The position numbers and the translations under genes were made by a program. The notes under the pieces are model-generated. The model searched no databases and had not been told where the DNA came from. It saw only the letters and a list, made by a program, of their open reading frames with translations. From Planctomyces sp. SH-PL62 (GTDB lineage Bacteria; Planctomycetota; Planctomycetia; Planctomycetales; Planctomycetaceae), in contig CAMDPX010000024.1 in NCBI GenBank assembly GCA_945905295.1, positions 1 to 49,286 of the forward strand: a stretch of 49,286 nt of DNA. The letters are read 5' to 3'. Numbering within the stretch: position 1 is the stretch's first letter; each line of letters begins with the position of its first letter. This document shows, piece after piece, positions 20,081-43,698 of the stretch.

Positions 20081-20159
20081 GAGCCCGACGAATGAAAGGA
20101 GACGACGAATGCTTCACTCGTCGTGACACATTCGTCGTCTCCTTTCATTCGTCGGGCTC
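20081..20159. repeat. Perfect 31-bp inverted repeat (CCCGACGAATGAAAGGAG family)
   Basis: The arms 20081-20111 and 20129-20159 (GAGCCCGACGAATGAAAGGA...) are exact inverted repeats with a 17-nt loop. The left arm is identical over 31 bases to that of the element at 43627-43698. Confidence 0.9.
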
Positions 20160-20428: not shown

Positions 20429-20436
20429 CTCTGCTC
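20429..20436. repeat. Target site duplication, left copy
   Basis: CTCTGCTC, repeated exactly at 23579-23586 on the other side of the transposon. Eight bases is a typical duplication length for the IS1 family. Confidence 0.9.
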
Positions 20437-20457
20437 GGTAGTGGGTCAGTCTAATCA
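20437..20457. repeat. Left terminal inverted repeat of the IS1-type transposon
   Basis: Begins GGTAGTGGGTCAGTCTAAT. The first bases GGT match the way IS1 ends begin. Exact inverted match to 23558-23578. Confidence 0.93.
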
Positions 20458-20524
20458 AAGTCGCGACGCGGATTCGTCCGCTGGATGTTGACACGCTTTC
20501 GGATGCGGTCATGCTTTGAGCATC

Positions 20525-20761
20525 ATGGCAAAAGCAAAACGTCCCCGCGACATCAACCAACTGGCCAAGGCGATTGTGGACATAGCCACCGGCGAGACGC
20601 CAGCCATACAGCCAGACGACAGCGGCAAGAATCCCGCCGCAGTCGCGCTTGGGCGGCTTGGCGGGTTGAAAGGTGGCAAGGCGCGGGCCGAGAGCCTCAA
20701 CAAGCAGCAGCGGTCTGAGATCGCCAAGAAGGCGGCTGCGGCACGCTGGAAGTCACAATAA
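20525..20761 (+). CDS. Small KGG-type protein, transposon passenger
   Basis: This is a 78-residue basic protein. The C-terminal half, ALGRLGGLKGGKARAESLN and then SEIAKKAAAARW, matches a small widespread bacterial family of unknown role with a conserved LGGLKGGKARA and an alanine/lysine-rich tail; nucleic-acid binding is plausible from the charge. The ATG at 20525 is used; an upstream TTG would add three residues. Its end overlaps the end of the convergent HEPN-like gene by nine bases. It lies just inside the left terminal repeat of the transposon. Confidence 0.75.
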   Translation: MAKAKRPRDINQLAKAIVDIATGETPAIQPDDSGKNPAAVALGRLGGLKGGKARAESLNKQQRSEIAKKAAAARWKSQ

Positions 20762-21214
20762 ATTCCGCTTGATTCGCCAACCAGCAAGGGCGTTTCCGAA
20801 ATGCTTCGCGATCCGACTTTGGATGGCAGCTAATTCGGTTATTTGGCGTTGAGAATTTACGAACCCTTCGATTTCACTTGCCTGTTCAACAGCCCACTTC
20901 GATCGAATTTGCTCGCCAGCAGGTTTGTTTAGTAATTCATAGTCTGCTTGGTGACGCCACGATTTCAAGTCAGCCAGTCGATGACCTGCTTCCTTTAGTG
21001 TGAGGTCATCTGAAAACCCTAATGCCCAGGGAACGGTCTCATGTTTCTTCGGGTTGGCTGGAATCTCCAGTTGAAGCCTGCTGGTCAAAAATTCTAAGCA
21101 ATGGTGCATTGCGCCATAGTACGCGCGGCTGACGCTTGATCGCCAAGTTGGCTCGGCTGATCCTGTAGCCACGCACCACGCCCCAGCGATACGGATAAAT
21201 TCCCTACCCTGCAT
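20753..21214 (-). CDS. HEPN-domain-like protein, third gene of passenger operon
   Basis: This is a 153-residue helical protein. The segment WRSSVSRAYYGAMHHCLEFL is the HEPN-type helix pattern (SRAYYaaxH), followed later by LADLKSWRHQADYELLN, the second conserved helix with an RxxADY core. HEPN proteins include RNases of toxin-antitoxin and phage-defence modules as well as non-catalytic partners. The canonical catalytic Rx4-6H motif is not certain: R..YYGAMHH gives an R-to-H spacing close to it, and RHQADY is the other candidate. The ATG overlaps the end of the upstream gene by 11 bases, so expression is coupled. Confidence 0.65.
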   Translation of the reverse strand: MQGREFIRIAGAWCVATGSAEPTWRSSVSRAYYGAMHHCLEFLTSRLQLEIPANPKKHETVPWALGFSDDLTLKEAGHRLADLKSWRHQADYELLNKPAGEQIRSKWAVEQASEIEGFVNSQRQITELAAIQSRIAKHFGNALAGWRIKRNLL

Positions 21215-21818
21215 CTTGGACTTCCAAGTCGAGGACGACGCTGCCGGGCATCAGTGATGGGAAAAACTCACTCAGTCGTTGATACCAGATTGACATCAAC
21301 GGCGAACAATCGACGTTCGTGTTGACGATTACCTTAACAACCAAGCGTGATGACTGCGTGACGCTGAATTCGTCTATTTCCTCGGCCACTCGTACTTTTT
21401 CGCCGAAAATCTCTCTCGCCAACTCATCAATCTGCTCTATGAACTCGTTCGGAAATTCTTCACCAGGTTTAGCGGGGGCCTGCTGCGATGCCACCTTCGC
21501 CTCTAGGGCCTGTAAACGGTCCTTCAAGGCGTTAAGTGTTTCTTGGTCGATAACCACATACTTGCTAGATAAGTTAAGAAGTTTGCGATTTTGCTGCTGC
21601 GCAACCACAGCGTTTGCAACCTGTTTTACTCGCAGCGACGAAGCTGACTTCTTAGGCCCGTGGCAGACAAACGTGTGTGGCCTCTCAGCTTCAAGACCCC
21701 AAACGACAACGTCGCGTCCTTCTCCTTCGATTGTTGCGCATCCAAAGCGGTCGCTTCGACGCGAGTCTTGCTTCAGGCCGCCCCTCATTGCTTCTTTAAC
21801 TCTGTTGTGCTGAAACAT
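21204..21818 (-). CDS. Unknown 204-aa protein, second gene of passenger operon
   Basis: The N-terminal part contains a short beta-rich segment (GRDVVVWGLEAERPHTFVCHG). The middle has a coiled-coil-like helix (QETLNALKDRLQALEAKVASQQ), and the C-terminal part has an alternating beta/helix pattern (SRLVVKVIVNTNVDCSPLMS, then WYQRLSEFFPSL). No known family was recognised. A strong Shine-Dalgarno (GGGAGGGG) lies just upstream of ATG 21818. It overlaps the first gene by 23 bases and the HEPN-like gene by 11, so the three proteins are probably made together. The C-terminal fold and its HEPN neighbour recall split nucleotidyltransferase/HEPN pairs, but no GSxxxxD motif is seen. Confidence 0.65.
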   Translation of the reverse strand: MFQHNRVKEAMRGGLKQDSRRSDRFGCATIEGEGRDVVVWGLEAERPHTFVCHGPKKSASSLRVKQVANAVVAQQQNRKLLNLSSKYVVIDQETLNALKDRLQALEAKVASQQAPAKPGEEFPNEFIEQIDELAREIFGEKVRVAEEIDEFSVTQSSRLVVKVIVNTNVDCSPLMSIWYQRLSEFFPSLMPGSVVLDLEVQDAG

Positions 21819-22473
21819 CCGCCCCTCCCGTCGCTTGTTTAACTTGGTGTTGCTTAGCGAGTACGAACCTGTCGAACACGTTCGACAGTCGAGTTGCAGA
21901 ATCGCAAAAGAGATTCTCTGAGAAAGTCGTTACTCCATTTCCGTCAATCGAAATAGAAAAGAAAGCTGCCTCGTCTTCTTCATTGAATCGCAGCGTGAAA
22001 CTAAGTTCATCAGCTTCCTCAATGCCAAGCGCAAATGTACCGCGAGTCAAGTACGCATCATCAAAATCCATGCCAACAATTGGGCCTAAAATGCTTCCAA
22101 TTGCAATCTGCGCTACTCCAATCCGAAATCCAGCATTTGACTCAGAATTTATCACTTCTCTGTCACCGAGGGCCGCAAACAACATCGCGCTAATTTCAGC
22201 GAGATCTGAGTTCGGAGTGGGCAATTCGTTGTCAAATAGCTCTGATGCAACAAAATCGACGTGAACATGCACGACGGATTCGCCAGATTTGCCCGCCAGA
22301 GTTGATGGTTCGATTACACACCGTGCGAATACGAGTGATCCGAAGACATCAAACGATGCAATTCTCTCTCCTCGAATTGAATCAATGTTTGGGACATCGT
22401 CTCTTTTTAGATGCCAGCAATTGCCGAGACGGCGAAGATATGAGCTAGAGAGGTTTGGTGGTTGAATTGACAT
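21796..22473 (-). CDS. Unknown 225-aa protein, first gene of passenger operon
   Basis: From ATG 22473 the protein begins MSIQPPNLSSSYLRRLGNCW. It is soluble and acidic, with alternating hydrophobic strands (SVVHVHVDFVASELFDN, DELSFTLRFNEEDEAAFFSI), and resembles no family I can name. A longer in-frame start at 22527 would add 18 residues, but the shorter start is followed by more regular sequence. Codons are richer in A and T than in the host genes around the transposon. The 208-bp region between this start and the transposase start is a divergent promoter region. Confidence 0.6.
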   Translation of the reverse strand: MSIQPPNLSSSYLRRLGNCWHLKRDDVPNIDSIRGERIASFDVFGSLVFARCVIEPSTLAGKSGESVVHVHVDFVASELFDNELPTPNSDLAEISAMLFAALGDREVINSESNAGFRIGVAQIAIGSILGPIVGMDFDDAYLTRGTFALGIEEADELSFTLRFNEEDEAAFFSISIDGNGVTTFSENLFCDSATRLSNVFDRFVLAKQHQVKQATGGADVSAQQS

Positions 22474-22681
22474 AACTAATTGTAACGACGCATTTAATGG
22501 CGTCAATAGGCGGTTAGAGCTGGGCATTGAGACTCGGCCGCCATGCCTGTTTCCCAGAAAATGACGAACAACGGAAAACTTCGCAGGGTTACAAATGGTT
22601 CGACATTGTGCCGAGCGTCGATTGAGAATTCCACCAACAAAATCAAGAAGTCATTTGCCAATCCAAGAGCGGTCAAGCATA

Positions 22682-23560
22682 ATGGTTAGTATGAAAACAC
22701 TGACCACCCAAAAGCGTTGCCAAGTCGTCGCGGCCTTAGTCGAGGGAAACAGCATCCGCTCGACCGTTCGGATGACTGGCGTGTCCAAGAACACTGTGAC
22801 CAAGTTGCTGGTCGATCTCGGCTGTGTTTGCACCGAGTTTCAGGACAAAGCCCTCCGCAACTTGGGCTGCAAACGTCTTGAGTTGGACGAAATCTGGTCA
22901 TTCGTCGGAATGAAGGACAAGCAAGTCCCGGCCGAGCGCAAGGGCGAGTTCGGCGTTGGCGACGTTTGGACTTGGGTTGCGATTGATCCTGTAAGCAAGC
23001 TGATTCCGAGTTGGCTGGTCGGCAATCGTGATGGCGAGTGTGCGCGAGCGTTCGTTGATGACTTGGCTTCACGTCTCGCGAACCGCGTCCAACTGACGAC
23101 CGATGGCCTCAAGTCGTACATCGACGCGGTAGACAACGCCTTCCCGGATCGTGGCGTCGATTACGCGATGCTGGTGAAGGTCTACGGTCAGACCGAAGCG
23201 GAAGGCAACCGCCGATACAGCCCGGCCGAGTGTCTCGGATGCGAGCGCCACATCATGGTTGGCGATCCCGACCCGAAATACATCTCGACCAGCATCGTCG
23301 AGCGCCAAAACCTGACCATGCGAATGAGCATCCGGCGGTTCACACGACTGACCAACGGTTTCAGCAAGAAGGTCGAGAACCACACTCACGCGGTCGCTTT
23401 GCACTTCATGCACTACAACTTCTGCCGAATGCACCAATCGCTGCGGATGACTCCCGCGATGAAAGCCGGAGTGACTGACCGCAAGTGGGGCATCGAAGAC
23501 ATCGTCGCGTTGCTGCCGGAGTTGAAATACAACACGCGACCGAAAAAACAGGCTTCCTGA
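22682..23560 (+). CDS. IS1-family transposase
   Basis: This is a 292-residue protein. An N-terminal helix-turn-helix (CQVVAALVEGNSIRSTVRMTGVSKNTVTKLL) replaces the short zinc-finger InsA part of classical IS1. The DDE domain follows with LELDEIWSFVG (first Asp), DVWTWVAIDPVSKLIPSWLVG, QLTTDGLKSYIDAV (second Asp) and STSIVERQNLTMRMS (catalytic Glu). HFMHYNFCRMHQSLRMTP is the usual C-terminal segment. All motifs are present in one uninterrupted frame, so it is probably active. Its TGA is the first three bases of the right terminal repeat. The ATG at 22682 is used; 22595 is an alternative. Confidence 0.9.
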   Translation: MVSMKTLTTQKRCQVVAALVEGNSIRSTVRMTGVSKNTVTKLLVDLGCVCTEFQDKALRNLGCKRLELDEIWSFVGMKDKQVPAERKGEFGVGDVWTWVAIDPVSKLIPSWLVGNRDGECARAFVDDLASRLANRVQLTTDGLKSYIDAVDNAFPDRGVDYAMLVKVYGQTEAEGNRRYSPAECLGCERHIMVGDPDPKYISTSIVERQNLTMRMSIRRFTRLTNGFSKKVENHTHAVALHFMHYNFCRMHQSLRMTPAMKAGVTDRKWGIEDIVALLPELKYNTRPKKQAS

Positions 23561-23578
23561 TTAGACTGACCCACTACC
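23558..23578. repeat. Right terminal inverted repeat of the IS1-type transposon
   Basis: Exact reverse complement of 20437-20457. The transposase stop codon occupies its first three bases. Confidence 0.93.
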
Positions 23579-23586
23579 CTCTGCTC
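23579..23586. repeat. Target site duplication, right copy
   Basis: CTCTGCTC, identical to 20429-20436. Removing the transposon and one copy restores a continuous pre-insertion sequence GACCCCTCTGCTCCGGC. Confidence 0.9.
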
Positions 23587-43626: not shown

Positions 43627-43698
43627 GAGCCCGACGAATGAAAGGAGACGACGAATGTTTGAGCGGTCTCATTCGTCGTCTCCTTCCATTCGTCGGGC
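43627..43698. repeat. Long inverted repeat (CCCGACGAATGAAAGGAG family)
   Basis: The left arm 43627-43657 (GAGCCCGACGAATGAAAGGA...) is identical to the left arm at 20081-20111. The right arm 43670-43698 has one mismatch. It lies between convergent genes. Confidence 0.9.

Follow-up and report, generated by a model that had tools for sequence, protein, structure and literature searches.

We analysed a 49,286-nt stretch of the Planctomyces sp. SH-PL62 draft genome (contig CAMDPX010000024.1; hereafter the window), in which a 3,142-bp unit at 20437-23578 encloses an IS1-type transposase gene and about 2.2 kb of non-transposase genes. The unit is bounded by perfect terminal inverted repeats (20437-20457 and 23558-23578; 21 nt, 100% complementary), with an exact 8-bp target duplication, CTCTGCTC, directly outside them at 20429-20436 and 23579-23586, as a first-pass annotation made from the sequence had proposed. 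The string CCCTCTGCTC, which includes this duplication, is present at both element ends. The gene order from left to right is a small gene designated KGG (plus strand), three genes of 153, 204 and 243 amino acids (aa; minus strand), and the transposase (plus strand). The features are as follows.

20429-20436, no strand: left copy of the 8-bp target duplication CTCTGCTC
20437-20457, plus strand: left terminal inverted repeat GGTAGTGGGTCAGTCTAATCA
20525-20761, plus strand: KGG small gene, 78 aa, ATG at 20525, recurring accessory gene of the lineage
20753-21214, minus strand: cargo gene 3, 153 aa, probable HEPN-domain protein without a direct Pfam match
21204-21818, minus strand: cargo gene 2, 204 aa, weak PADLOC match to LmuB (1.6e-4 over 67 aa)
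21796-22527, minus strand: cargo gene 1, 243 aa, without relatives in the 149 other family genomes
22661-22680, no strand: palindrome ATGCTTGAnCGnTCAAGCAT in degenerate form, a candidate for an operator or an RNA hairpin
22691-23560, plus strand: IS1-type transposase, 289 aa from ATG 22691, reading frame open from 22595
23558-23578, minus strand: right terminal inverted repeat
23579-23586, no strand: right copy of the 8-bp target duplication CTCTGCTC

The three minus-strand genes overlap at 21796-21818 and 21204-21214, which suggests a single operon. ATG 22691 is most likely the start of the transposase, and its stop codon falls within the right terminal repeat. GC content drops from about 0.60 in the surroundings to 0.48-0.51 across the passenger genes, in agreement with the first-pass description of them as AT-richer. 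Within its own 8.6-Mb genome the terminal repeat occurs at two places only (≤3 mismatches), both of them the element ends, and the transposase has a single match. Rfam and tRNA scans of the window gave no match. We interpret the unit as, very probably, a unit transposon of an IS1-type lineage that combines a recurring KGG core with swappable cargo.

Recurrence of the element, the KGG gene and the palindrome

A one-genome-per-species scan with the transposase identified 157 relatives, of which we used the best 80 (53-72% identical, from many phyla); a scan of viral contigs (IMG/VR) gave 207 matching stretches, 80 of which were used. We counted an element as delimited when a 16-nt inverted repeat with at most four mismatches and an exact 8-bp duplication were found beside the transposase. 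Delimited elements were present at 62 of these 160 transposase-selected loci (36/80 species genomes and 26/80 viral contigs), with lengths of 1,323-4,779 bp; the ends and duplication thus recur around many other copies, where a failure to do so would have counted against the first-pass reading. Two of the viral-contig rows, L271 and L272, are one and the same element. The ends often read GGTAGTGnnTCAGTTT, with GGT at both ends in 60/62 elements and at one end in 2/62. Displaced decoys satisfied the same rule in 5/786 cases, in 13/786 when no demand was made on the end letters, and in 0/152 when GGT was demanded at both ends. Where no element could be delimited, truncation, divergence or a contig end may be the reason. 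Among more distant transposases, scoring below 370 bits, four (L165, L169, L170 and L177) lie in units that measure 2.6-2.8 kb and have matching ends, duplications and no KGG match, and one (L168) lies in a 4.5-kb unit with a weak KGG-like match; several others gave no ends.

We note two further observations on distribution. At one locus (L151; G161:C22), two different elements of the lineage, each flanked by an exact duplication of its own, are oppositely oriented and separated by about 4 kb. The transposase is also frequent in contigs classed as viral (the 207 IMG/VR stretches), where contamination by host DNA is possible; phages or proviruses may carry these elements or serve as their insertion targets.

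A full-length KGG profile match (>55 bits) lies inside 52 of the 62 delimited elements (33/36 from species genomes and 19/26 from viral contigs), on the other strand in three of the 52 (L052, L081 and L276). Weaker matches are seen in three others: L064 matches in the N-terminal part, L235 has a cut-short KGG, and a cargo protein of L073 contains a KGG-like motif. In a previous list set by hand, a KGG match of some kind was present in 38 of 39 elements, counting L064 and L005 (for the latter, just a motif within a P63C protein). The first-pass annotation had placed KGG in the passenger together with the three overlapping genes. The overlapping genes hold up; KGG, given its presence inside 52/62 elements, is better seen as a recurring core part of the element.

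Genome-wide surveys gave a similar association. In 150 genomes of the family, KGG occurs in eight, near a transposase in five, at a contig end in one and alone in two. Of 294 genomes of the phylum, six have KGG at E≤1e-20, in five of them no more than 2 kb from a transposase, and KGG is present in each of the five genomes whose transposase reaches 440 bits; among 11 other phylum genomes with weaker transposases, G280 has a weak KGG-like match 2.7 kb away and G070 has KGG far from the transposase. In 200 genomes of another class, for which the transposase list is partial, there are 49 strong KGG genes; 32 of them are no more than 5 kb from a transposase, and 31 share its strand.

Neither Pfam nor NCBIfam gave a match to the window KGG protein at E≤1. 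No Pfam model is touched by more than two of 37 members of the KGG family, and then always at E≥0.012; a PDB sequence search with the family profile gave nothing at E≤1. Structure prediction gives a helical fold, with a mean pLDDT (predicted local distance difference test) of 83.5 and a pTM (predicted template modelling score) of 0.38. One plasmid record annotates KGG as 'histone H1'.

Variant forms were also seen. The cargo proteins of one cluster (L005, L073, L155 and L261; that of L005 is P63C by Pfam) carry a KGG-like motif at their start, which looks like a fusion of the accessory gene to cargo. In a second arrangement, a shortened KGG (about model positions 33-81) lies about 110-155 bp from the transposase and divergent from it (G619:C160, G575:C239, G658:C376, G611:C23 and G630:C1). 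In L271, L272 and L277, which have no standard KGG, a minus-strand protein downstream of the transposase, zinc-ribbon-like by eye, carries a KGG-like DANQIA motif.

The palindrome ATGCTTGAnCGnTCAAGCAT lies about 10 nt before many transposase starts. The window copy, 10 nt before the transposase ATG, differs at 3 of 18 fixed letters. Allowing at most six mismatches, it precedes 39/62 transposases and 18/62 KGG genes, against 102/1,680 random windows of the same elements and 20/1,240 shuffles. Allowing at most four, it is found in 53/123 KGG-bearing loci, 4/30 loci without full KGG (one of the four being L235) and 14/2,220 random windows; the association with KGG has a Fisher p of 0.003, uncorrected for relatedness. 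Because the pattern was derived from the same elements, these counts are biased towards it. In some copies both arms are altered jointly and the palindrome is kept, for example ATGCGTGA...TCACGCAT. When any palindrome of at least 8/10 pairs was accepted, 42/124 KGG-bearing loci (not all with this motif) and 3.3% of 3,345 random windows had one. The palindrome is possibly an operator, or an RNA hairpin over the ribosome site.

Insertion as a whole unit and turnover of cargo

We compared two plasmid-borne elements, of 3,370 bp in Mesorhizobium loti and 2,634 bp in Acidiphilium multivorum, with related plasmids that do not have them. When the flanks were joined over 80 nt with one 8-bp copy kept, the relatives matched with 3 and 4 mismatches (Mesorhizobium) and 1 and 1 (Acidiphilium), against 24-29 mismatches with both copies kept; in both Mesorhizobium relatives one mismatch lies within the 8 bp itself. 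These empty sites show, by comparison of sequences, that the unit inserts as a whole. The Acidiphilium element (L185) interrupts the RES-domain gene of a RES-Xre pair, and related plasmids have uninterrupted forms.

For the window itself, the first-pass annotation had called for an empty site in a related strain. In a syntenic relative, G103, the same two flanking genes lie 351 bp apart with no element between them; their products are 96% and 91% identical to those in the window (by eye, homoserine dehydrogenase and a sensor kinase). Base-exact empty sites exist on the plasmids; within the genus, the window's own junction could not be aligned to the base because the intergenic DNA has diverged. 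We also considered whether the passenger genes are host genes of this site, present in relatives that lack the transposase, and rejected this on the synteny with G103.

A Pfam scan of 65 cargo proteins from the first 39 elements found 51 families, 25 of which were detailed. They include HTH_3 (5), SDH protease (3), N6/N4 methylase (2) and M78/ImmA peptidase (2), with single occurrences of HigB, HicB, PemK/MazF-like, NYN, dCTP deaminase-like, HNH and type I specificity domains; an Abi-like protein was among the 20 cargo proteins examined in detail. In PADLOC, 4/65 matched PD-Lambda-2_B (best 1.3e-45), and XRE/ImmA pairs in the cargo resemble PD-Lambda-2, which is one type of cargo and not the element. 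Ten picked cargo proteins gave further PADLOC matches to AbiD-like, type IIG-like and PDC-M63B proteins, five of the ten having no match at 1e-5. Many cargo proteins match nothing. Judged from raw counts, the cargo often appears to be toxin-antitoxin, restriction or other defence-like genes.

Cargo changes between close relatives. With single-linkage clustering, 18 out of 83 elements carry an XRE/ImmA-type family, and 13 carry the family that partners it. One genome (G163) has four elements with different cargo in each, two of them encoding distantly linked XRE proteins. L145 and L147, also from one genome, have transposases that are 94% identical in nucleotides and 96% in amino acids, left 250-bp segments that are 75% identical, an unshared middle and unrelated cargo. 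In 29 of the 36 element pairs whose transposases are ≥70% identical, the two elements have no cargo family in common; the other seven pairs do, L271/L272 doubling one of them. L265 is a 1,365-bp element with an exact duplication, kgg and transposase, and no cargo ORF (open reading frame) of at least 75 aa. Cargo is probably exchanged by recombination in the shared kgg and transposase flanks.

The window's own cargo occupies the position held by XRE/ImmA pairs in relatives, and has no PD-Lambda-2_B match in PADLOC. Relatives of the 243-aa protein were found in its own genome only (1/150 family genomes), as were those of the 204-aa protein (1/343 genomes). The viral contigs hold no relatives of the 153- and 204-aa proteins and the plasmids none of the 204-aa protein; the 243-aa protein was searched in neither set. 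Against the other fetched loci, phmmer found no match at E≤1 for any of the three, and tblastn gave chance-level matches only (E 0.5 to 0.95). The 153-aa protein, called HEPN-like in the first-pass annotation, has no HEPN or other Pfam match at E≤1 or E≤10; the label is supported indirectly, through a Gloeothece protein (36% identity over 73 aa) that itself matches PF05168 (HEPN) at 4e-6. The HEPN RNase motif is Rx4-6H. The aligned segment here reads WRHQADYE, without the expected spacing, and a single-sequence structural model reached a pLDDT of 41, too low to be of use. From the relative, the product is a probable HEPN protein. By the company it keeps, we would guess, with some hesitation, that the operon has a defence or toxin-antitoxin-like role.

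Placement of the transposase and competing explanations

The window transposase matches PF03400 (IS1) at E 4.5e-9 to 6e-9 (37.2 bits; cut-off 24.1), as do 38/38 aligned transposases (E≤0.01). D71, D143 and E209 are invariant in these 38 and align to the D, D and E of Escherichia coli InsB. A PDB sequence search with the transposase profile matched no solved structure. The best NCBIfam match is transpos_IS1 (1e-17, 64.7 bits); because this lies below the equivalog cut-off of 100, we read the transposase, from sequence, as IS1-type in the sense of a diverged member or a sister group of the classical IS1 family. Target duplications in that family are 8-9 bp, a range that includes the 8 bp seen here, and the ends start with GGT, as in IS1A. 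Classical members measure about 0.7-1.2 kb and hold only transposase genes. In size and content the lineage departs from them, with 3,142 bp and a single transposase ORF in the window and relatives of 1.3-4.8 kb. Thus, compared with E. coli IS1A (768 bp), these elements are alike in the PF03400 DDE transposase, GGT ends, InsB-aligned D-D-E triad and short target duplication; they differ in being about 2-6 times longer, in the extra KGG gene and variable cargo, and in having one transposase ORF where E. coli IS1 has the insA/insB frameshift.

IS1595-family elements can carry passengers, and their DDE fold is related to that of IS1. Could the element belong to this classical home of passenger-bearing insertion sequences (IS) instead? 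Its members likewise give 8-bp duplications, and the title of Siguier 2009 couples the IS1 and IS1595 families. However, the IS1595/ISXO2 model is absent among the 15 Pfam families listed for the 38 transposases (E≤0.01), all of which match PF03400, and both the transpos_IS1 match, albeit below cut-off, and the GGT ends point to IS1. On the Pfam and NCBIfam matches we rejected IS1595 membership, which we consider very unlikely.

If the window held a plain IS1 that had picked up host genes by chance on a single occasion, the absence of relatives of the cargo from other genomes (149 for the 243-aa protein, 342 for the 204-aa protein) would fit. Yet the same architecture is found in dozens of diverged elements, and the cargo-free form is rare: among the 62, L265 is cargo-free with a full kgg and L235 is a near-case. 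We therefore regard such a capture as highly improbable. An assembly artefact deserves mention, as the genome assembly consists of 476 contigs; the element lies in the interior of the 49-kb window, and matching elements are found on complete plasmids of named isolates whose relatives have empty sites, so that we give this explanation almost no weight. KGG might also be plain cargo and not a transposition factor, serving as antitoxin to, or partner of, the toxin-like operon beside it. KGG does adjoin toxin-antitoxin-like operons, some strong KGG genes have no listed transposase nearby, and the P63C-type cargo proteins start with KGG-like motifs. Nevertheless, KGG stays constant while the cargo changes, it is kept in the cargo-free L265, and the palindrome before the transposase is commoner with KGG than without. 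We find this reading rather unlikely.

Several observations weigh against the interpretation of the unit as a transposon with a KGG core and swappable cargo. Transposition itself was not observed, and movement is read from the comparison of sequences. The window's cargo proteins are almost without homologues, and the cargo counts are raw. Seven of the 62 delimited elements have no KGG match (L079 and six viral-contig rows), and in three the match is partial or at motif level; KGG is therefore not indispensable. KGG lies without a nearby transposase in 3/8 family genomes (one at a contig end) and without a nearby listed transposase in 17/49 cases in the other class, where the transposase list is partial. 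The low pTM of the KGG model goes with no PDB fold match at E≤0.001. Finally, the palindrome is found in just 53/123 KGG-bearing loci (≤4 mismatches), and general palindromes of at least 8 pairs also occur in 6/30 loci without KGG.

A model for the lineage and its relation to known systems

We propose that the DDE transposase would act on the two GGTAGTG... repeats, insert with an 8-bp stagger and move everything between them. The core would be left repeat, kgg, transposase and right repeat, about 1.35 kb, with variable cargo beside kgg that is exchanged between elements, probably via recombination in the shared kgg and transposase sequences. KGG may be a small DNA-binding protein controlling transposition, possibly at the palindrome before the transposase, whose ligand it would then be. 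This proposal is modelled on InsA, described as a repressor in E. coli IS1 (PMC12428005). The three-gene operon of the window, with its probable HEPN protein, would be a defence or toxin-antitoxin-like module.

Passenger-bearing insertion sequences are a known concept, for which the general name transporter IS (tIS) is in use (PMC7986276, PMC9330008). Our elements appear alike in having one transposase and two ends that enclose passenger genes and in moving as a unit. The tIS example ISDsp3 belongs to the IS6 family, whereas the elements here are IS1-type, nearly always carry cargo, and have a recurring accessory gene and cargo swapping. Tn7-like transposons, described as carrying defence cargo (PMC8649781), are alike in outline, with a conserved transposition core and diverse defence cargo; here, in contrast, there is a single IS1-type transposase in 1.3-4.8 kb, and the window's five ORFs have no Tns-type Pfam match. 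Tn3-family transposons are reported to embed toxin-antitoxin pairs (PMC7157771) and share with these elements toxin-antitoxin genes within a transposon; they differ from the present lineage, which has an IS1-type transposase and cargo also of many other kinds. Among the titles and abstracts of the top-listed papers, we found no IS1-type lineage with a KGG gene and cargo swapping; ISfinder may hold single members.

Outside the element, the window contains a hairpin repeat with 37-nt arms at 20081-20159 and a related repeat at 43636-43691. Its 22-nt half GAATGAAAGGAGACGACGAATG has 135 + 132 copies in the genome (≤3 mismatches; reversed control 0), often in inverted pairs, as in families resembling repetitive extragenic palindromes (REP) or miniature inverted-repeat transposable elements (MITE).

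These small transposons have sharp ends, and their own repeats delimit each candidate defence or toxin-antitoxin module. The cargo can therefore be read directly, which allows guilt-by-association discovery outside defence islands. They also raise the questions of how a one-transposase element acquires and swaps cargo and what role the constant KGG protein plays. More speculatively, the elements could form a distinct cross-phylum family in which KGG and a palindromic operator govern transposition and cargo turnover, a compact vehicle for immunity and addiction genes. If this possibility, which we advance tentatively, is true, the family would be a hunting ground for new immunity or addiction genes, such as the probable HEPN operon of the window.

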